NCBI GenBank assembly: GCA_009840545.1 | Contig: VXNM01000014.1 | Span: 307,197-371,196 of the forward strand | Reading direction: 5' to 3' | From: Gammaproteobacteria bacterium | GTDB taxonomy: Bacteria > Pseudomonadota > Gammaproteobacteria > Pseudomonadales > Azotimanducaceae | DNA: 64,000 bases | Shown: positions 4,883 through 61,194 of the stretch, one piece after another | How positions within the stretch are numbered: position 1 is the first letter of the stretch | How the letters are laid out: every line of letters begins with the position of its first letter | The notes under the pieces: generated by a model | Databases searched by the model: none | Seen by the model: the letters and a program-made list of their open reading frames with translations, nothing else | Told to the model about the DNA's origin: nothing | Program-made: the position numbers and the translations under genes

Positions 4883-5682
4883 TTACATTTCCCGGTTCTC
4901 ATGCGTAGCTTGAAACTCAACAATCCGTCGTGTCCACCAACTTTGACTCGACGCAGCGCCAGCCGTTCTCTTGCGAAGTCTCGAGAAATTCCCTGTTCTG
5001 TCGTTACAGCCGTGCGATAGCCGGCTCGATCAACAGTTTCAATGTCCTCTTGACCGAAGATCCCGAATGGGTAGGCAAACGAATCAACCGTAGTGCCAAA
5101 GCAATCTTCTAGATCTGACTTGCTCTCGAGAATCTCGGTTGCCCGTTCGGCGGGGCTCGCATTTCTCAGGTTGGCATGGGTTATGGTGTGGGCTCCCAAT
5201 TCCCAACGACCGGAACTCAACATTTGACTAATGTCCGCGTCGAGGAGCTTTGGTTCGCTCATTAATTCACCGTCGGAATGATGCATCTTTTTGGACTTAG
5301 ACCAATCTCGATCGTGTCTGTCTACAACAAGATACAAAGTGGCTTTAGCCTCGTACTTTTCCAGGATAGGATCCGCAATTAGCAAATTGTCCCTATAGCC
5401 ATCGTCAAACGTGAGTGCAACACACTTTCGCAAACTAGAACTGTCAATCTCCGACATAAGCAAGAACTCCCACCCATCTTCACACAACCACCGAATCTGT
5501 CTCTCGAATTCGGCCGGATCCACCCGAAGCTTGTTGAACCTAGCTTTTGGCTTCTGTCGACTAATCATGTGATACATCAGTATTCGGGGTATGGAGTAAT
5601 TTACGGTCGGCCGCCACCAGGCATATTGAAAAGAGACAACTAGCGCTGCCACTGCCGCACCACCCACCAAGATCCAATTCAC
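4870..5682 (-). CDS. Membrane-anchored polysaccharide deacetylase (NodB homology domain)
   Basis: A NodB-type carbohydrate esterase. After one N-terminal transmembrane segment (WILVGGAAVAALVVSFQYAW), the catalytic domain shows ILMYHM, the motif-1 TFDDGYRDN (catalytic and metal Asp), the motif-2 HTITHANL (metal His pair) and AYPFG. It probably removes N-acetyl groups from a polysaccharide outside the membrane. I chose GTG at 5682, which overlaps the TGA of the upstream glycosyltransferase as GTGA and begins right at the membrane anchor; the open frame extends to 5772 but would run into that gene. Length is 270 residues. It is the second gene of a three-gene operon. Confidence 0.87.
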   Translation of the reverse strand: MNWILVGGAAVAALVVSFQYAWWRPTVNYSIPRILMYHMISRQKPKARFNKLRVDPAEFERQIRWLCEDGWEFLLMSEIDSSSLRKCVALTFDDGYRDNLLIADPILEKYEAKATLYLVVDRHDRDWSKSKKMHHSDGELMSEPKLLDADISQMLSSGRWELGAHTITHANLRNASPAERATEILESKSDLEDCFGTTVDSFAYPFGIFGQEDIETVDRAGYRTAVTTEQGISRDFARERLALRRVKVGGHDGLLSFKLRMRTGKCKWKD

Positions 5683-6782
5683 GATGTCAACTCTTCGTAC
5701 ATTGCAATTGTGCGAGCACACATCTTCTCTAATGTCATTCCGTGCGGTTTTATCGATTGGGACGACTGGCACATATCTACAATTCGTCCAGACGCAGCAG
5801 GAATGTCACCAAGCTTGACAGCTCCAACGGGAAAAACCTGTTTCAAGATCTCGCCCACTCCTCCATGATCGAAAGCAACAACCGGGGTACCAAGAGACAA
5901 AGCTTCCAAAACGGTGCGTCCAAACGATTCGGGTTTCGTCGACAGAGATAAAACGCACGAACTGACAGAGAAAATCTCTCGAACATCGGATCGCTGGCCG
6001 GTGAACCAAACGCGGTTCTCGAGATGTACAGACCGCGACACGCGTTCACGAAGTGCCCGTGCATATTGTCGATGACGCGAATCCTCTGAACCCACAATCA
6101 GTCCTCTACATGGAAATCCTGTCGAATTGAGCTTCTCCAGCACCGACAAGAACTCTTGCTGCCCTTTGAGTCGCGTTACACGTCCAGCCAGTGTGAGAAC
6201 AGGAACTGCATCAGGATTGAATTCCCGCATGCATTGACTCCATGACCGCATCCATTCATCGGAAGGTCGAAAGTTCATGTAGTACTGGGATGGATCGATA
6301 CCGCGGTAGATCACACGTACTCTTGACTGGTCCACTCTGGGGTAGTTTTGAAGCAAGTATTCTCGAGCTGTATTCGAGACAGCTTCGATTCGCTCGCCTC
6401 GTCCTATCACTGCGCTGTATCGTGAGACCGAATGGAGTCCATGAACGCTTGTAACAAATCGGGGACGGCTTTGACCCACTCTACCTAAAGCTATCAATGT
6501 CAACCAAGCAGGTAAACGAGATCGACAGTGAACAATGTCCACTTTCTCTTGCCTGAGAAATGCTGCAATCTGACCAATGCCCTGAAGGGACCTAGGAGTT
6601 TTTCGGGCTACTGCCATCGGTTCATGTCGAACACCCAATCGTTCAAGTTCTCCAACCATAGCACCGCCTTCGGAAATCACGATGGGTTCGTGGTTGCTTC
6701 TTGATAAAGCTGAGGCAACCTCCACGGTGCCACGCTCTACGCCTCCGCTCTCCATGCGAGGCACAATCTGAACGACTTTCAC
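5679..6782 (-). CDS. GT4-family glycosyltransferase
   Basis: A GT-B fold glycosyltransferase of family 4 type, 367 residues. The N-terminal half opens with VVQIVPRMESGGVERGTVE, the pattern of nucleotide-sugar transferases acting on lipid-linked or surface glycans. The C-terminal half has the donor-site signature KPESFGRTVLEALSLGTPVVAFDHGGVGEIL (EX7E motif). It is cytoplasmic or membrane peripheral. The start is GTG with no clear Shine-Dalgarno. It overlaps the polysaccharide deacetylase gene by 4 bases, so transfer and deacetylation of the same glycan is a reasonable inference. Sugar donor and acceptor are unknown. Confidence 0.88.
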   Translation of the reverse strand: MKVVQIVPRMESGGVERGTVEVASALSRSNHEPIVISEGGAMVGELERLGVRHEPMAVARKTPRSLQGIGQIAAFLRQEKVDIVHCRSRLPAWLTLIALGRVGQSRPRFVTSVHGLHSVSRYSAVIGRGERIEAVSNTAREYLLQNYPRVDQSRVRVIYRGIDPSQYYMNFRPSDEWMRSWSQCMREFNPDAVPVLTLAGRVTRLKGQQEFLSVLEKLNSTGFPCRGLIVGSEDSRHRQYARALRERVSRSVHLENRVWFTGQRSDVREIFSVSSCVLSLSTKPESFGRTVLEALSLGTPVVAFDHGGVGEILKQVFPVGAVKLGDIPAASGRIVDMCQSSQSIKPHGMTLEKMCARTIAMYEELTS

Positions 6783-50828: not shown

Positions 50829-50956
50829 AGCTATCTCCTACAATGTTGGGATTAGCGGAGTCGAGCGAAACACGCTCAGGGATCGGTCCAATCTGCACTT
50901 AGACAACGGATCCTTTGGTTGGAACGATCTCGATTTATTTCGGTAGGAGGACCGCC

Positions 50957-53563
50957 ATGAAACGAAACAAAGCATCATCTCACGAGGACACGCCCAAAAT
51001 TACGGGCCTCCACTCAAAGCTCCTTTCTCATTCCAGGAGTGGATTCCCCACCTGCCTACGAACGGTTTGCGTAGCATTTTTTTTGGCTTCAATTGCGAAT
51101 GCTTCTCATTTACTTGCTCAGCAGACTTCCGAAGACGAAGAAGAAAGTGACAACTCTGGGGTTGTCGAAATCGAAGTCGAGGCCACTCCAATCGAAATTG
51201 AACCAGGTACCACCACATACACAGAGGAAGCTATTAGTGATGCGCCATTGGGAGAAGGAAATCTGTCCGACCTGCTCCGGCTAAATCCAGCCATAGAGTT
51301 TTCGCGCTCCAGCGATTTGTCTGCGGGAACCGCTTCGTTGCGCCCCGACGAGGTCTCGATACATGGAAATGTCTTTTATCAAAACCTCTTTCTTGTGGAT
51401 GGGACCGACACCACCAACGACCTGAATCCCGCCGCATCAGAGGATTTATGGAGTACGCCGAGTCTGGTTGCGCCACATGGAGGAAGTTCACCTCAAGGCT
51501 ACTACATCGATGTCGAGCTACTCGAACAAGTGAAAGTGTATGACAGCAATATACCTGTGGAATACGGTGGATTTACAGGAGGTGTTGTCGCCGCCGAGCT
51601 CAAGTCATACGGAGGTGTCGACAAGTTTAGCTTCACCTATGGATTGCAGCGCGACGACTGGGAGAAGTTTCACGTCACTGAAGACGACATTTCCGTAGCA
51701 GACAAGTATCGAGCCGTCTATACACCCGATTACAAAAAAGCAAACTACGGCTTCTCCGTACAGTACGGAGTCACCGAAGATGTCGGATTGACACTCTCAT
51801 TCAATCGCCGCACCTCAGTCTTTGCACAGGAATTTGAGGACGACGCAGACATCATTCGGATGATCGACTACGAAGACTCAATCAACAATCTAGTGGGTAA
51901 AGTTGATACAAAGGTCGGCGAATACGATCTCGCCGTGTCGTTTCGCTACTCTAACCGTGCTCACGACGGACTAACGTCCACAACGTATACGGGAATGTTT
52001 GTGCAAGAACATCAAGGATTGGGAACAACTGTTGACCTAAAAACTGAAATGGACAAGGGTTTGCTGAACGTAAAGTTCTCGATTGATCAGCTGTCCGATA
52101 CTTTGGACAGCGAATCGAGTTTCTTCACCTATCACGAGTACTTGGAAAGCAGTGGAATGTCGAGGTTTGAAGGAGCATTTGGAAGTTCAAACCAACAACA
52201 AACTCGTTGGAGCATCAAACCCAAGTGGGTATTCAACGAATTCGCTCACGAATTCGGAACTCAATCCATCACACTGGGCGGAGAGCTGAGAGGAACATCC
52301 AGCTTTTATGAACGTCCAGACGATGTGATATTCGAACAGTACTTCTGCGTTCGAGATAACGGAAGAATGGGATGCCGAGACCAAGATGGAGACGGAGTGA
52401 GCAGCGCTGGTGATGAGTTTCTGCAGCGTCGATCGTTTTGGTATGCGGGCGAGGTGGATCTTTCCTATCAAGAGCTCTCCATGTACATTCAAGATGTCAT
52501 TACTCTCGAAAATTTCGGATTTCTCGATACGGCTGAAATCACTTTGGGGTTGAGATCTGATTGGGAGAGTTTTCTTGACAATTTCAACGTCTCGCCGCGA
52601 GCGAGCATAAGCTATCCAACTTCCTATGGATCGTTCGCCTTGGGACTAAGTCGTTACTACGGTAGAAGCTTCTTCCGCTACGAATTGAACGACGCAATCT
52701 ACGGTTGGCGGGAGTCATACGCGAACCTGACCCGGCCGAGAGGGAGACCCGGCGAGCAAGTTCCGTGTTCAGTCACAGATTTTGAGGACTGTACCCACTT
52801 TACATACGACAACCGAACAGGAGCGTCAGATTTGAGCACGCCCTTTTCGGATGAACTGTCAATCGGTTGGTCGCGAACGGAAGGAAAGCTGCTCCATGCA
52901 ACGGTTTCCTATGTGAATCGAAACAACAAGGACGGAGTTTCACGGCGACGTGACGAAGATGGGTTGTACTACTACACTAACCTGGGAAGGAGTGCTTCAC
53001 AGGGAATTACGTCCACCATCACTAACGCCGAGACGATTTCGATTGGACAGACTAATACACACTTTTCAGTTAGCTTCGGCTACTCAGAGACTACTAGCAA
53101 TCGCCAAGACGATGCTGGTTACGATGAGCAACTCGATGAAGAATTGATCTTCTACGAAGGCGGACTGGTTGCGGTCGATGATCTGCCTCCATGGGACTAC
53201 AACATTCCATTTACTTTTGGGTTCTTTACCACTACCGAAGTACCTGTTTGGAATATTAGCTGGACAAATTACTTCAACCACAGACGTGGCGGAACAGTTG
53301 CGCGCGACTCTCGAGAGGACTACACAGATCCTAATTCGGGCTTGACTTACGACATCTACAGAGACTTCGAATTCGACAGTCTACTTACCGTCAATTCGAA
53401 GATTACCTGGACGGGTAAACTAACTCAAAGGTGGTCGATGTTTGCAACCCTAGAGGTCAACAATCTGTTTGATCAAATTGTCGACCAGAGCACGGTAACT
53501 ACCCGAAGAAGGTTTACGAAGGGACGTCGGTTCTGGATCGAGCTGGGCACTCGTTTTCAATAG
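50957..53563 (+). CDS. TonB-dependent outer-membrane receptor
   Basis: A receptor of 868 residues from the ATG at 50957, which has AGGAGG seven bases before it. A signal sequence lies at about residues 30-55 (TVCVAFFLASIANASHLLAQ) with an unusually long basic leader. The plug domain (about 75-210) has LSDLLRLNPAIEFSRSSDLS and FLVDGTDTTNDLNPA, and the barrel ends in an aromatic residue preceded by Phe/Leu strands (FWIELGTRFQ). A loop has RDQDGDGVSSAGDE, an EF-hand-like calcium motif. It is followed by exbB-exbD-exbD-tonB, so it has a dedicated energiser. The ligand is unknown. Confidence 0.87.
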   Translation: MKRNKASSHEDTPKITGLHSKLLSHSRSGFPTCLRTVCVAFFLASIANASHLLAQQTSEDEEESDNSGVVEIEVEATPIEIEPGTTTYTEEAISDAPLGEGNLSDLLRLNPAIEFSRSSDLSAGTASLRPDEVSIHGNVFYQNLFLVDGTDTTNDLNPAASEDLWSTPSLVAPHGGSSPQGYYIDVELLEQVKVYDSNIPVEYGGFTGGVVAAELKSYGGVDKFSFTYGLQRDDWEKFHVTEDDISVADKYRAVYTPDYKKANYGFSVQYGVTEDVGLTLSFNRRTSVFAQEFEDDADIIRMIDYEDSINNLVGKVDTKVGEYDLAVSFRYSNRAHDGLTSTTYTGMFVQEHQGLGTTVDLKTEMDKGLLNVKFSIDQLSDTLDSESSFFTYHEYLESSGMSRFEGAFGSSNQQQTRWSIKPKWVFNEFAHEFGTQSITLGGELRGTSSFYERPDDVIFEQYFCVRDNGRMGCRDQDGDGVSSAGDEFLQRRSFWYAGEVDLSYQELSMYIQDVITLENFGFLDTAEITLGLRSDWESFLDNFNVSPRASISYPTSYGSFALGLSRYYGRSFFRYELNDAIYGWRESYANLTRPRGRPGEQVPCSVTDFEDCTHFTYDNRTGASDLSTPFSDELSIGWSRTEGKLLHATVSYVNRNNKDGVSRRRDEDGLYYYTNLGRSASQGITSTITNAETISIGQTNTHFSVSFGYSETTSNRQDDAGYDEQLDEELIFYEGGLVAVDDLPPWDYNIPFTFGFFTTTEVPVWNISWTNYFNHRRGGTVARDSREDYTDPNSGLTYDIYRDFEFDSLLTVNSKITWTGKLTQRWSMFATLEVNNLFDQIVDQSTVTTRRRFTKGRRFWIELGTRFQ

Positions 53564-53745: not shown

Positions 53746-54381
53746 ATGCTTGATCGATTGGGTGAGTTTCTGATCGTGGGTGGACCCGTTGTCTGGGTTC
53801 TCCTATTGATGTCCATTGCCGCAGTGTCAATCATCGTTCTCAAACTTTGGCAGTTTGTGACACTCAAGCCTGAATATCAAGGCAACTTGGAGGAAGTCTT
53901 CTCACTATGGCGGCGAGGCGAAAATCAAACTGCTCTCGAACGACTCGACGAGACGGTCTTTATCGCTAATGTTGCTGGTTTTGCAATGCAAAGCCTGAAC
54001 GAAGGAGCTTGGGACGAAGAAGTTCTCAAAGAAGAGCTAGATCGTATAGCCATTTTGAAGCTCAATGATCTACGTTCTCTGCTACCCGCTCTCGAGACAA
54101 TCGGCACTCTGAGTCCACTACTCGGGTTGCTAGGCACCGTGCTAGGAATGATCAACGCGTTTCAAGCTATGGAAGCCGCTGGAACTCAGGTGGACCCCTC
54201 GGTTCTTTCAGGTGGTATATGGCAAGCGCTAATCACAACTGCGCTCGGTCTGGGAGTGGCTATTCCAGCCCTTATCGCCCATAGTTGGATGGTACAAAAA
54301 CTACAACGTGTAGCTACTCAATTCAACGACTGCGTCACTCAACTATTCACTAGTTACCACTTCGAAAATCGTCCAAAGTAA
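53746..54381 (+). CDS. exbB: ExbB/TolQ family proton channel subunit
   Basis: A 211-residue MotA/TolQ/ExbB protein. Three membrane helices: about 10-33, 118-140 and 155-178. The conserved segment ETIGTLSPLLGLLGTVLGMINAFQAM and GGIWQALITTALGLGVAIPALIAH match the ExbB core that forms the pentameric pore. ATG at 53746 with GGAG upstream. First gene of the exbB-exbD-exbD-tonB cluster behind the receptor. A TolQ of the Tol-Pal system is unlikely because tonB is adjacent. Confidence 0.9.
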   Translation: MLDRLGEFLIVGGPVVWVLLLMSIAAVSIIVLKLWQFVTLKPEYQGNLEEVFSLWRRGENQTALERLDETVFIANVAGFAMQSLNEGAWDEEVLKEELDRIAILKLNDLRSLLPALETIGTLSPLLGLLGTVLGMINAFQAMEAAGTQVDPSVLSGGIWQALITTALGLGVAIPALIAHSWMVQKLQRVATQFNDCVTQLFTSYHFENRPK

Positions 54382-54394
54382 TGGTTCTAACGTA

Positions 54395-54793
54395 TTGAAA
54401 ATAAAGCGTTATTTTCAATTTCCTAGAAAACGGGTTAGCATGGTTCCGTTGGTTGACGTTGTCTTTATTTTGTTACTGTTTTTTATGCTCACAACATCCA
54501 TTGCGAAGGAAAAGCAACTACCAGTCGGTTACTCGACTGCAACCACCTCCAGTACGGAAGTGGTTACCCGAGAACTTGTGATTGAAACCGAAGACGGGGT
54601 CATTTCAGCGGAAGGGCAAAGGATCTCAACTCATGATGCGAAAAAACTCGCTGCATGGGTCGGTTTGGATGCGGATGCAATCTATATAGTCGATACACAG
54701 TCTCAAATATCCACTCAAGCCCTGGTAACCGTGCTTGACAGGCTTTCCGATGCAGGAGCAACTCAATTGATGGTCAAAGAAGACCAACCATGA
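54395..54793 (+). CDS. exbD: ExbD family protein, with intact proton-carrying Asp
   Basis: A 132-residue ExbD/TolR protein with one membrane helix (about 17-36, VPLVDVVFILLLFFMLTTS) and a periplasmic domain. Asp21 in PLVDVV is the residue that carries protons in ExbD. TTG start at 54395, since the next ATG (Met16) would remove the N-terminal cytoplasmic tail. It overlaps with the second exbD by four bases (ATGA). Confidence 0.88.
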   Translation: MKIKRYFQFPRKRVSMVPLVDVVFILLLFFMLTTSIAKEKQLPVGYSTATTSSTEVVTRELVIETEDGVISAEGQRISTHDAKKLAAWVGLDADAIYIVDTQSQISTQALVTVLDRLSDAGATQLMVKEDQP

Positions 54794-55215
54794 CTGTGGA
54801 GCTACGGCAGAACCCACCTTCTTCCGACACTCAGTTGATTCCTTTGATCAACGTCGTTTTTCTAATGCTTGCCTTTTTCATGATCGCCGGTCAAATTCAA
54901 AGACCAGATTCCGTCGTTTTGGAAACTCCGATTTCGGAGAGTGAGTCGGATCGCCAGTCAAGTCCTATCACTATCGCCGTTACGAAGGATGAACGAATCT
55001 TTGTGAACGGCACGCTTGTTTTGCAAGAAGAACTGGTCAACCACATATCGGAAATGAGTGATGAAATTGGATCGCCTTCGTCTCCAACAATCTTGCTGAG
55101 GGCTGATGCTCGATTGGCTGCAGTACGTACACGTGCGATATTGGGAGCACTTCGCGAGACAGGCATTGGCGAAGTTTCCTTAGCGACGCTACATACCTCA
55201 GGCTTCCGAGAATGA
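54790..55215 (+). CDS. Second ExbD family protein, Asp replaced by Asn
   Basis: A 141-residue ExbD paralogue with one membrane helix LIPLINVVFLMLAFFMIAG. The position of the proton-carrying Asp is Asn21 (AAC, 54850-54852), directly seen in the sequence. The periplasmic domain (about 45-141) keeps the ExbD pattern, including a conserved ILLRADARLAAVRTRAILGALRETGIGEVSLAT. It overlaps the first exbD by ATGA and is likely made together with it. It could not by itself carry protons; a mixed ExbD pair is possible. Confidence 0.85.
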   Translation: MTVELRQNPPSSDTQLIPLINVVFLMLAFFMIAGQIQRPDSVVLETPISESESDRQSSPITIAVTKDERIFVNGTLVLQEELVNHISEMSDEIGSPSSPTILLRADARLAAVRTRAILGALRETGIGEVSLATLHTSGFRE

Positions 55216-55246: not shown

Positions 55247-55999
55247 ATGAAGAGCTATTCCCGATGGCTTGCTGCCCTACTCGTCGCCTCTTCCTTGCAT
55301 GCCTTGATGGTCGTTTCTTGGCTTGGATTCGCATCGCTCGACGGCGCTACGCATGGCAATCAAGGTGTGCACGATGGTGTTTCCATAATCTTGGATATCG
55401 ACCCATCACCCACCTCCGATGTTATGGATGAGACAGAGAAGGAAGTTGCGCAACTCGATCCGACTCCTACAGTTTTCGAGCAAGTCCAGCCCTCCGACTT
55501 CAAGCTGGAACAAATTCCAACAGAAATTCCTCTCTCGGATCTTCAACCTGTATTCGAACTACCCAATCCTCCAAGTATCCCGACTCTGGAGGTTCCACTC
55601 ATAGTCCTTAAAGATGACCAATTTCTCCAAAGTCATCGGCCTTCTGCACAAAGTGGTGCAGGTCCAGGAAGTTCCAATCAAGTAGGATCCACCAAGCGTC
55701 TCTCTGACTCACATCTGGCTCGCGTGGCCGCTCACTTGAATCGTTTTAAGAAGTATCCCAACGCATCGCGCCGAGCCAAAGAGGAAGGCAAGGCAGGAGT
55801 GACATTTAGGGTCTTTGCTGACGGAAGAGTCGATTCAATTCAACTCACCAAGTCGACTGGCTATGCTGAGTTAGATGAGGAAGCGCTCAGTATGGTTAAA
55901 CGAGCATCTCCCTACCCCAAATTTCCGAATTCACTAAACCGACGGGGAGTAACGGAGCTAGAAGTCAGGTCGTCGATAAACTTTTCGATCAAGGACTGA
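55247..55999 (+). CDS. tonB: TonB family energy-transducing protein
   Basis: A 250-residue TonB. One N-terminal membrane helix (about 7-29, WLAALLVASSLHALMVVSWLGFA), including the Ser-His pair (SLHALMV) that interacts with ExbD. A long Pro/Glu/Asp-rich periplasmic spacer (about 50-160), then the C-terminal domain with HLNRFKKYPNASRRAKEEGKAGVTFRVFADG and LDEEALSMVKRASPYPKFP. ATG start. Last gene of the cluster. Confidence 0.9.
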   Translation: MKSYSRWLAALLVASSLHALMVVSWLGFASLDGATHGNQGVHDGVSIILDIDPSPTSDVMDETEKEVAQLDPTPTVFEQVQPSDFKLEQIPTEIPLSDLQPVFELPNPPSIPTLEVPLIVLKDDQFLQSHRPSAQSGAGPGSSNQVGSTKRLSDSHLARVAAHLNRFKKYPNASRRAKEEGKAGVTFRVFADGRVDSIQLTKSTGYAELDEEALSMVKRASPYPKFPNSLNRRGVTELEVRSSINFSIKD

Positions 56000-57343: not shown

Positions 57344-57706
57344 CTAAGAATCTGATTCTACTGTCCGACTGTCGCGATTCTTCCAAATCTCTTCAAGTCG
57401 TTTGTGAGTATTGTCGTCTCGTTCTCGAGCTTGGTCTATTCGATCACGCAGAGCACGTCCCGGTCGAAAATACGGAACATGTCGTTCGGGAACATAAACC
57501 GACTCGCCGGTTCGAGGATTTCTTCCAACTCGGCTTACTCGCCTGCGGAGTCCAAAGGAACCAAATCCGCGAATCTCTACACGATGCCCTTCGACCAGCG
57601 CGTTTGATACTTCTTGCAGAATCAGATCCACACAGCGAACAACAGTCTCTTTCGAAAGTTCTGGCTGCTTGTCAGCGATGAGTTGCTCCAACTCCGAACG
57701 TGTCAT
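57344..57706 (-). CDS. ihfB: Integration host factor subunit beta
   Basis: A DNA-bending protein of 120 residues. The core is MTRSELEQLIADKQPELS, EVSNALVEGHRVEIRGFGSFGLRRRVSRVGRNPRTGESVYVPERHVPYFRPGRALRDRI. GRNPRTGE holds the minor-groove intercalating Pro. The C-terminal 25 residues are longer and more charged than in E. coli IHF-beta (94 residues). The ATG at 57706 is the start. It lies between rpsA and lapA in the usual order. Confidence 0.94.
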   Translation of the reverse strand: MTRSELEQLIADKQPELSKETVVRCVDLILQEVSNALVEGHRVEIRGFGSFGLRRRVSRVGRNPRTGESVYVPERHVPYFRPGRALRDRIDQARERDDNTHKRLEEIWKNRDSRTVESDS

Positions 57707-57799: not shown

Positions 57800-59800
57800 T
57801 TAGGAATCATCGGAGTCCGATTTAGACTTTGGATCTGTTGGTGTGCCCGAATCTTCGTCCGGCGCGTCGTCGAGGGAAGTTTCCTCAGTTGTTTCTTCTG
57901 AATCCTCCGACTCATCTGCACCCGTTTCCACATCAGTTTGCTCGGATTCTTCGCTTTCCACCGATTCTACAGATTCTTCGGTGTCCTCAGACTCTGTGCT
58001 CGCCTGCAAAGAGTCTTCGTCTGCCTCTACTTCTGCATCGTCGGCGATGCTGCCTGTGTCTTCTGCAACACTAGAATCCTCGACTGCAGAAGAAGCATCT
58101 TGCTCCTGCACTTCCTCATCTGTCTTACCCTTGTTCAGTTGAGACCTAATGAGTTCACCAAAGGTCGTCTTTCGTGTTTCTTCTGCTGTCTGACGTTGAT
58201 ACTCTCGATGAGCTTCTGCTTCGGACTCCTGTTCGCCTTGTTTAATGGACAACCAGACGATCCGATTCCTAAGATCGATGTTGATGACCTTGGCGGTAAC
58301 TTCATCGCCAGCCTTAAGAGCTTGCCGAACATCCTCAACTCGGTCTCTAGAGATTTCTGCAGCTTTGATTGACCCGTTGACTTCAGGAGCCAGTCGAATT
58401 TTTGCCTCGCGTGCATCGACTTCCGTTACAACTCCGGTAACCATGGTTCCCTTGGGATTTTCGTTGGTGTAATCGCCGAAGACATCGGAATCCAATTGCT
58501 TGATTCCCAAACCAATCCGCTCACGTTCGACATCGATCGCCAGAACAACGGCGTCAACTTGTCCTCCCTTACTGAAACGCCGGACCACAACTTCACCGGG
58601 CTCGGTCCACGACATGTCAGACAAGTGAACTAGCCCGTCCACGTTGCTGTCCAGTCCGACAAAAATCCCAAAATCGGTAATGGATCTGATCGTGCCAGAA
58701 ACTTTATCGCCAACGGAATGTACTCGATCGAACGCTTCCCAGGGATTCTCGAGGCATTGCTTAATTCCAAGCGAGACGCGACGTCGGTCTTCGTCAATGT
58801 CAAGAATCATTACTTCTATCGTGTCACCGGTAGTTACGACTTTTGAAGGAATCACATTTCTGCTAATCCAGTCCATTTCTGATACGTGAACTAGCCCTTC
58901 GACGCCTTCTTCAATCTCCGCGAAACATCCGTAGTCCTGGATATTGGTGACAGTTGCATAGACCTTTGTACCCTTGGGATACCGTCGAGTGATGTCAACC
59001 CACGGGTCGTCTCCCAATTGCTTCATGCCCAAGGAGACACGGTTTCGCTCTGAGTCAAACGACAAGACCTTGACCGTAATTTCTTGTCCAACACTAACAA
59101 CTTCACTGGGATGTCGTACACGCTTCCATGCCATGTCAGTGACGTGTAACAATCCGTCAATTCCTCCAAGGTCAACGAACGCACCGTACTCAGTTAAATT
59201 CTTGACAATTCCTGGCTTAACTTGACCTTCCGCAAGGGAATTCAACAGGGCTTCGCGCTCTTCGCTATTTTCGAGTTCGAGTATCGCTCGCCGTGACACT
59301 ACGACGTTGTTTCGTCGCTGGTCAAGCTTGATAACTTGGAACTCTAACTCCTGCCCTTCCAGATCGGCAGTGTCTCGAATGGGTCTGGTGTCCACCAGAG
59401 AACCCGGCAAGAAGGCTCTTACATCGTCAATACTCACTGTAAATCCGCCTTTTACCTTGCCATTCAAGACGCCTTTTATAGGCTCTTTCTTCTCAAACGA
59501 TTCTTCAAGAATCTCCCACGTTTCCGCACGTTTGGCCTTTTCGCGTGAAAGGCGGGTTTCTCCAAAGCCGTCATCGACGACTTCCATCGCAACCTTGACC
59601 TGGTCACCGATTTCGAGTTTGAAATCGCCATTTACATCGAAAAATTGATCTCGCGGGATTACTCCCTCGGACTTTAATCCCACGTGCATCGTGACGAATT
59701 CGTTATCAATATCTACAACTGTTCCAACAACGATCGACCCCGGTGTCATCTCTACGGTATGGACACTTTGTTCAAACAGTGATTCGAAGGACTCTGCCAT
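57800..59800 (-). CDS. rpsA: 30S ribosomal protein S1 with a long acidic C-terminal extension
   Basis: The mRNA-binding ribosomal protein S1. Six S1 OB-fold domains run through about residues 1-545 (for example [87 protein letters not shown]). E. coli S1 has 557 residues; here there are 666. The last approximately 106 residues are a low-complexity Glu/Asp/Ser/Thr tail. AGGAG lies before the ATG at 59800. cmk is upstream, but an ankyrin gene on the opposite strand lies between them. Confidence 0.95.
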
Positions 59801-60060: not shown

Positions 60061-61194
60061 GTGCCTAAGCAACCTCTAGCCAAGACAATCCAACTAACAG
60101 GTAAGGCAAGCGACTTTCTCAAGATAGGTGTCGCCGCAGCTGGTCGCGGTGATGTGGAAGCAGTCGAGCACTTGTTGCAAATCAAGCCGGAATGGGTGCA
60201 TCGTGTCGGTTCGCATGGCCGGACGATGCTCTGGGAAGCGTCGTATAGAGGGCGAACAGACATGGTTTCGGTGCTCACCGATCGTGGAGCAGACATCGAT
60301 GCTTGTGGATGCCACTTTACTCCCCTGCTAGTGGACATATCACCCTATTGCGCCGCAAAGTTCAAGAAGCACGAAGAAACTGCTCGATTGCTGCTAGCCC
60401 GTGGTGCTCGAGTCGACTTCTACACGGACGTGTACTTGGATAGCTACGACCGCGTGAAGCAGCAGTTAAGTGAAGATTTAAGCCTCGCAGTGAAAGAGAA
60501 AGTTCAAAACGACCGAAATGTTAAAGCGACCGCCCTTCACTACGCAGTTAGTCAGAGCCGAATAGAGATTCTGGATTTGTTGCTAGAACATGGTGCAGAT
60601 CCGCGACCGTACTCCCTGTGGCTGGTGCGGTTTGCGATCTGGCGGAAGAGTACCGACGTCTTGGAACGATTGTTCCGTGCTGGAGTCGATCCATCTGTTT
60701 CAGCAATTCCTCGATCTGGAATTACCGACCCCGCGATCAACGATTTACTTGACAAGTACGGAGTAGCCTTTGACCCCGATGGTTCCGAAGGCGGATGGCC
60801 TCCATTGGTGTATTCAGCTCGTGGAGACCGGGGAGGAAGTTTGGAAACCGTTCGCAAACTGCTTGGGCAAGGTGCAGACGTGAACCAACGCAACTACAAG
60901 GGTCAGACAGCTCTCCACTGTGCGGCTAAGGCGGGATTCGTGCACATAGTCGAGGAATTGTTGAAGCACGGAGCCGTCGTGGATGCAGAAGATGAAAACG
61001 GCGATACACCTCTGCTAACAACAATGCGTTCTACAGTAAAGAACAAAGAGAAACTGTTTGAAGTCGCAAAAATTCTTACAAGTGCAGGGGCAGACGCAGG
61101 GCGAGAAAACAAGAAGGGTCATACACCGTTGACGGTCGCTTGTAGGAAAGCGAATGCAGACTATTGGATAGCGTGTCTATCGTCGGGACGATGA
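60061..61194 (+). CDS. Ankyrin repeat protein
   Basis: A 377-residue protein made of ankyrin repeats. Repeat phrases include GRTMLWEASYRGRTDMVSVLTDRGADID, EETARLLLARGARVD, ATALHYAVSQSRIEILDLLLEHGADP, GQTALHCAAKAGFVHIVEELLKHGAVVDAEDENGDTPLL and GHTPLTVACRKAN. No signal peptide or membrane segment, so probably cytoplasmic; ankyrin repeats bind proteins. The GTG start at 60061 comes before the first repeat. It sits on the opposite strand between cmk and rpsA, which are neighbours in most gammaproteobacteria, so it looks inserted. Partner unknown. Confidence 0.8.
   Translation: MPKQPLAKTIQLTGKASDFLKIGVAAAGRGDVEAVEHLLQIKPEWVHRVGSHGRTMLWEASYRGRTDMVSVLTDRGADIDACGCHFTPLLVDISPYCAAKFKKHEETARLLLARGARVDFYTDVYLDSYDRVKQQLSEDLSLAVKEKVQNDRNVKATALHYAVSQSRIEILDLLLEHGADPRPYSLWLVRFAIWRKSTDVLERLFRAGVDPSVSAIPRSGITDPAINDLLDKYGVAFDPDGSEGGWPPLVYSARGDRGGSLETVRKLLGQGADVNQRNYKGQTALHCAAKAGFVHIVEELLKHGAVVDAEDENGDTPLLTTMRSTVKNKEKLFEVAKILTSAGADAGRENKKGHTPLTVACRKANADYWIACLSSGR

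Follow-up and report, generated by a model that had tools for sequence, protein, structure and literature searches.

The E. coli-type Ton motor, ExbB5-ExbD2-TonB, is described as having a single ExbD gene product that provides two essential Asp residues (PMC12215075; here and below, the literature is cited from parts of the published texts). According to this structural paper from 2025, alternation between two essential Asp, with a step of 36 degrees per proton, is assumed by all rotary models of ExbBD and MotAB (PMC12215075). E. coli ExbD(D25N) is named as an inactive mutant (PMC11658791) and MotB D22N is described as a mimic of the protonated state (PMC9389320). Tandem exbD genes are already known (PMC3551730, PMC6434023, PMC3169522). 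They lie beside exbB and tonB in Xanthomonas (PMC3551730), and in the Oar-dedicated TonB1-ExbB1-ExbD1-ExbD2 system of Myxococcus a dedicated TonB and a TonB-dependent transporter accompany a pair of ExbDs, the deletion of each exbD leading to a developmental defect (PMC6434023). The Myxococcus AglRQS gliding motor has a single ExbB/TolQ homologue and two homologues of ExbD/TolR, and its core complex was reported in several Gammaproteobacteria (PMC3169522). A review states that both AglQ and AglS carry the Asp, and gives as unknown whether they form homo- or heterodimers (PMC9389320). A search of the open-access literature, with subscription papers and preprints outside its scope and the papers seen as excerpts, gave no description of paired ExbDs of which one lacks the Asp.

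The window, a stretch of 64,000 nucleotides from a gammaproteobacterial contig, contains such a pair in an operon with the gene order TBDR-ExbB-ExbD1-ExbD2-TonB, all on the + strand. The first gene (positions 50915-53563) encodes a TonB-dependent outer-membrane receptor, assigned by its Plug domain alone (PF07715, 29.6 bits for a cut-off of 23.9), the Pfam scan having given no beta-barrel family match. It is followed by ExbB, a 211 aa pore subunit of the MotA-TolQ-ExbB family (53746-54381; PF01618, 103.6 bits). ExbD1, the Asp-bearing protomer of 132 aa (54395-54793; PF02472, 53.9 bits, cut-off 25.4), contains the motif PLVDVV, with Asp21 at the proton-carrying position encoded by GAC at 54455-54457; this numbering presumes the TTG start at 54395. 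ExbD2, the Asn-bearing protomer of 141 aa (54790-55215; PF02472, 67.3 bits, cut-off 25.4), contains PLINVV, with Asn21 encoded by AAC at 54850-54852, and its start shares the four bases ATGA with the stop of ExbD1. The last gene (55247-55999) encodes a TonB-family force transducer of 250 aa (PF03544, 53.5 bits, cut-off 24.6; TIGR01352, 61.9 bits, cut-off 27.1). The two motifs, their coordinates and the Asn codon had been pointed out in a sequence-only reading, and were recovered when the sequence was read again. All four other ExbD/TolR genes of the source genome carry the Asp.

The operon shares with the two Myxococcus systems and with Xanthomonas the presence of two ExbD/TolR-type genes, and with the Oar system in particular a dedicated TonB and a receptor. 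It shares with the E. coli-type motor the ExbB, ExbD and TonB families, the pore threonines and an ExbD made of a single helix and a periplasmic domain. Thr131 and Thr164/165 of ExbB occupy columns that are conserved whether the locus has a pair or a single ExbD; the ExbB family profile aligns with solved TolQ and ExbB, and these threonines align with solved TolQ. The matches of ExbB, ExbD1 and ExbD2 to the NCBIfam equivalogs exbB, exbD, tolQ and tolR were all under cut-off, indicating that the window genes are relatives and not orthologues of the E. coli-type Ton genes. A PF01618 ExbB with pore threonines, an Asp-bearing ExbD and a protein with a TonB C-terminal domain were all observed, as in a Ton motor. 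The E. coli-type motor has one ExbD gene product and two Asp, whereas the window has two ExbD genes and one product without the Asp. Because ExbD2 carries Asn21, the system is a Ton motor variant and not a classical Ton motor. As judged from the open-access literature search, which suggests novelty and does not prove it, the new element is the conserved Asp/Asn split and not the tandem exbD genes themselves. Further along the window, a long ORF on the minus strand (57800-59800), which by eye resembles ribosomal protein S1 and has a long acidic Ser/Glu/Asp-rich C-terminal tail, adjoins an integration host factor beta gene (57344-57706). A 377 aa ORF (60061-61194, + strand) shows ankyrin-repeat-like similarity, the listed NCBIfam matches being all far under their cut-offs.

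The Asp/Asn split was found in many related loci. A family search with ExbD2 in 150 genomes gave, among its best 30 loci, the window and 12 other Asp/Asn loci, one Asp/Asp locus and 16 loci with a single Asp-bearing ExbD. A pattern scan of 84,980 species genomes gave 437 relatives of ExbD2, and 80 loci were kept. All 80 showed the order ExbB, ExbD, ExbD(Asn), TonB in a scan whose pattern itself required Asn and which is therefore biased on that residue; the first ExbD had Asp in 79 of them and was disrupted in one. Their titles corresponded to Gammaproteobacteria, except for one Alphaproteobacteria MAG (L078). Searches of viral contigs and of plasmids yielded no ExbD2 relative. To lessen the Asn bias, a profile was built from 11 ExbBs (ten from Asp/Asn loci and one from an Asp/Asp locus), so that no ExbD residue entered the search; this profile favours similar ExbBs. 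It anchored 108 loci, 88 given by the searches and 20 fetched by hand, with selection among the listed matches. They contained 78 distinct tandem pairs, 74 of which were Asp/Asn, three Asp/Ser and one Asp/Asp, and the lone ExbDs of these loci had Asp in 28 of 28 distinct cases. Apart from the Asn-pattern scan, the sampling of tandem ExbDs covered the Pseudomonadota; one Asp/Asn locus (L183) came from a different class of this phylum.

The full set, counted after leaving out duplicate ExbD2 sequences, comprised 144 distinct pairs. The second ExbD carried Asn in 140 of them, Ser in three (L162, L167 and L226) and Asp in one (L049, also found as L223 in genome G037), no other Asp/Asp pair having turned up in the window's system. 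The first ExbD carried Asp in 143, the remaining one, in Paraglaciecola polaris (L116), being unreadable there and counted as '-/N'. The disruption in this locus, around positions 5593-5959, falls in the transmembrane segment of the first ExbD and could reflect a genuine lesion or an error in the sequence record. One more locus (L068) lies beyond the 900-base pairing rule and hence outside the 144, yet was Asp/Asn in the pattern scan; in the ExbB comparison described below, where 54 loci are classed as "single", this locus is the exception. The sequence-only reading had suggested looking for the Asn in orthologous second ExbDs, and would have abandoned its interpretation if residues at the site were random. 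The conservation of Asn in 140 of 144 pairs answers the first point positively and rules out the second.

Both Asn codons were in use in these 144 pairs (AAC in 76, AAT in 64). The mean pairwise identity among second ExbDs was about 33% over the whole domain and about 73% in the transmembrane segment. A compensating acid was not found in the ExbD2 helix, where the 18 columns from -3 to +15 contained one Glu and no Asp in 144 sequences. Chance is excluded by the contrast, in the ExbB-anchored loci, between second ExbDs (Asn in 74 of 78) and lone ExbDs (Asp in 28 of 28), and, with both codons in use, the Asn looks selected for. The nearest in-frame ATG or GTG start of ExbD2 overlapped the ExbD1 stop by four bases in 66 of the 144 pairs and by one base in 28. 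Since this overlap, measured at the nearest possible start, concerned 94 of 144 pairs, translational coupling of ExbD1 and ExbD2 is likely.

A tree of 115 ExbD domains was drawn from 128 columns by a quick search, after removal of the key column; it is unrooted and many of its forks are weak. All 36 sampled second ExbDs were on one side of a branch with moderate support (SH-aLRT 89), and the first ExbDs clustered with the lone ExbDs of TonB-type systems (support 82). The Asp-bearing second ExbD of L049 neighboured an Asn-bearing protein with the same genus code (support 94). As it is nested in this way in the second-ExbD clade, it seems to have regained its Asp by a reversal in nature; the existence of this Asp/Asp pair inside the clade means that Asn is not strictly required in the second ExbD. 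The AlphaFold2 monomer models of ExbD1 (mean pLDDT 81.7, pTM 0.54) and ExbD2 (mean pLDDT 81.1, pTM 0.56) were confident except at the ends and in the linker. The solved folds nearest to the ExbD1 model were TolR/ExbD periplasmic domains, and E. coli ExbD 8vgc was the nearest to the ExbD2 model (Foldseek E 1.8e-5). As modelled, ExbD2 keeps the ExbD architecture and has lost the proton carrier alone.

The ExbB subunit showed a residue linked to the pairing. Position 117, a Glu encoded by GAG at 54094-54096 in the window, was Glu in 134, Asp in nine and Ala in one of the 144 paired loci; L143 is a paired locus devoid of the acid. The same position was Ser in 14 and Gly in one of the 15 nearest single-ExbD relatives. 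This association comes down to two to four independent contrasts, a number too small for significance (p 0.5 in a sign test), and the acid at residue 117 is already part of the ExbB profile behind much of the sampling. Two ExbB-anchored loci from genomes of about 1.0-1.1 Mb (L149 and L150), in which the ExbD model found no ExbD beside ExbB, had Gln and Lys at this position, and their ExbBs nest in the paired ExbB clade with weak support. A gene that by eye is receptor-like precedes ExbB in both. Residue 117 is located 14 residues before the pore Thr131, approximately four helical turns. From this periodicity, Glu117 should face the same side as Thr131, toward the cytoplasm, where it may contact the basic N-terminus of ExbD1.

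The cytoplasmic N-side of the ExbD1 helix was basic in 143 of 143 pairs, with a mean net charge of +3.2. The corresponding ExbD2 segment had a mean charge of -0.3 (negative in 65, zero in 44 and positive in 34), with Asp or Glu at -8 in 130 of 144 and at -7 in 102 of 144 sequences. The mean was +0.15 for the same segment of lone ExbDs (n=52) and -1.1 for Asp/Asp tandem ExbDs of other kinds (n=8), which are thus also acidic. Only 65 of 143 pairs combined a positive ExbD1 with a negative ExbD2, and charge complementarity on the periplasmic side was unsupported (15 of 143 pairs). Covariation between ExbD1 and ExbD2 columns placed 16 of the 127 top pairs on the diagonal, compared to 4.1% of all pairs; offsets of 5-10 columns gave 8-14 pairs, so that the signal is weak and not position-specific. 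The N-side charges are a hint, not a proof, of ExbD1-ExbD2 pairing.

A second system with the opposite arrangement emerged from an even sample of 36 genomes of the class. The Pfam ExbD model gave 16 adjacent ExbD pairs, neighbours being paired by coordinates: two were of the window type (the window and L143), nine belonged to a system with Asn in the first and Asp in the second ExbD, and five were Asp/Asp. None of the 16 lacked the Asp in both ExbDs. Example motifs in this mirror system are TAFMNLMV in the first ExbD and SLMDIFT in the second. A profile built from nine Asn/Asp loci and anchored on the second ExbD led to 28 loci, which include the nine Asn/Asp loci and one Asp/Asp locus of the 36-genome sample: 26 were Asn/Asp, one was Asp/Asp and one was cut by a contig end (L304). 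Two matched AgmX-type places (G226 and G250) were left out of this count. The Asn-first loci fall among L273-L281, L282-L303 and L305-L308, from genomes of the class. As in the window's system, the Asn copy was the more acidic on the N-side (-1.8, versus +0.8 for the second copy; ten of each). The two transducers scanned, those of L279 and L281, scored above cut-off for a C-terminal AgmX/PglI domain, and their GltG/GltJ similarity was below cut-off. On account of these matches the mirror system resembles the AglRQS core complex. These AglR-AglQ-AglS-GltG-like relatives pair one Asp with one Asn protomer, Asn first. The window transducer gave no AgmX/PglI match in Pfam or NCBIfam, and is instead a TonB-family protein in a TBDR operon. 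The mirror-system ExbDs form their own clades (G1, support 96, and G2, support 95), apart from those of the window's system; by parsimony, the Asp would therefore have been replaced at least twice, at opposite operon positions. The Xanthomonas-type gene order, which we take to be tonB-exbB-exbD1-exbD2, differs from that of the window. It was recognized by eye in locus L269, in a gene-order reading that left out L271-L277. This locus, the only one here with that order, is Asp/Asp, unlike the Asp/Asn pair of the window.

The sequence-only reading had described receptor, motor and TonB as a self-contained transport unit. This holds for close relatives, as a homologue of the window receptor lies upstream of the motor genes in nine of 13 fetched family loci (43-79% identity) and in 13 of the 80 pattern-scan loci, whose genomes are partly those of the family set. 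In other loci, different receptors, for example a siderophore receptor, adjoin the same four-gene core. Five of 16 other loci inspected by eye (L053, L058, L097, L099 and L102) showed a receptor-sized, an FMN-dehydrogenase-like and a PiuC/YbiX-like gene downstream of tonB. The families were confirmed by scan for all three genes of L053 and for the receptor of L102, the others being assigned by eye. In L053, a Piscirickettsiaceae MAG, the TonB-dependent siderophore receptor model TIGR01783 was above cut-off, the best model, Fiu, remaining below its own, and both an FMN dehydrogenase and an Fe2+-dependent dioxygenase were above cut-off. These scan results suggest that at least some Asp/Asn motors probably serve siderophore uptake.

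We propose, in line with the heterodimer and single proton path considered in the sequence-only reading, that ExbD1 and ExbD2 probably pair obligately as a heterodimer, which would form the axle within the ExbB pentamer and be powered via one protonatable Asp. The axle would drive the neighbouring TonB, which would pull the outer-membrane receptor. In this model, the protonatable Asp would be present only in the ExbD1 half, and the permanently neutral Asn of ExbD2 would act like an always-protonated Asp. If the window motor has the 5:2 stoichiometry and rotates, as we infer, protons would pass only while the ExbD1 side is turned to a pore site, and the Asn half-step would be made without one. 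Given the description of MotB D22N as a mimic of the protonated state, a D/N axle would take one proton per 72 degrees, or five per turn, compared to one per 36 degrees, or ten per turn, for an axle with two Asp. By arithmetic on the published models, its torque would be approximately half at the same proton motive force. As the E. coli D25N mutant is named inactive, an ExbD2 homodimer is expected to be dead as a proton-driven motor. ExbD2 keeps its family and its predicted fold, and in the loci examined the Asn form depends on an Asp partner.

ExbD1 homodimers could alternatively be the engine, ExbD2 forming with ExbB a separate, proton-inert complex, a brake, peptidoglycan clamp or gate that regulates TonB. 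The periplasmic ExbD fold predicted for ExbD2 would suit such a role, and a Xanthomonas exbD2 is reported to be dispensable for iron uptake while being needed for another TonB-dependent function (PMC3551730). The Asp/Asp state of L269, a tandem locus of the presumed Xanthomonas-type order, tempers this parallel. We consider a separate complex unlikely, as lone ExbDs all had Asp (28 of 28), the Asn form was partnered in each of the 80 pattern-scan loci and stays beside the Asp copy across many families with a constant order within each system, and ExbB differs with pairing.

The obligate heterodimer could also work in a different manner, the Asn, or rarely Ser, joining the proton path via a bound water, in which case protons would be conducted in both half-steps and the motor would step in the conventional way. 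The residues found are indeed polar and capable of hydrogen bonding (Asn in 140 and Ser in three of 144), none being hydrophobic, and the ExbB pore threonines are conserved. The inactivity reported for E. coli ExbD D25N (PMC11658791) makes this rather improbable. We give a slim chance to an exchange of subunits, by which Asp/Asp and Asp/Asn dimers would coexist as a high and a low gear set by the supply of ExbD1 and ExbD2: two separate genes permit mixtures and one lineage (L049) has an Asp/Asp pair, but the start/stop overlap in 94 of 144 pairs, at the nearest possible start, favours fixed ratios. Finally, an ExbD2 decaying as a duplicate under relaxed constraint is most improbable: Asp to Asn is a single-base change, but 140 of 144 pairs retain the Asn and both of its codons are used, which led us to reject chance or relaxed loss, the transmembrane segment is far more conserved than the whole domain, and the mirror system offers a parallel case.

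An obligate heterodimer with a single Asp may not be restricted to the TonB-type motor. We see about even chances that half-charged axles are a recurrent design, having arisen by duplication at least two times in 5:2 proton motors, with the Asn second in the TonB-type and first in the AgmX/AglRQS-type. If so, alternation between two Asp would not be essential to this class of motors, which would spend roughly half as many protons on each turn and deliver roughly half the torque. One of the two Asp has apparently been removed in a widely distributed group of Ton motors, and a second time in another type of motor. Asp/Asn pairs would constitute a natural test of the need for alternation, of the proton cost per turn and of the reason for a cheaper, weaker gear. 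Annotations and models should not treat tandem ExbD paralogues as equivalent to one another.
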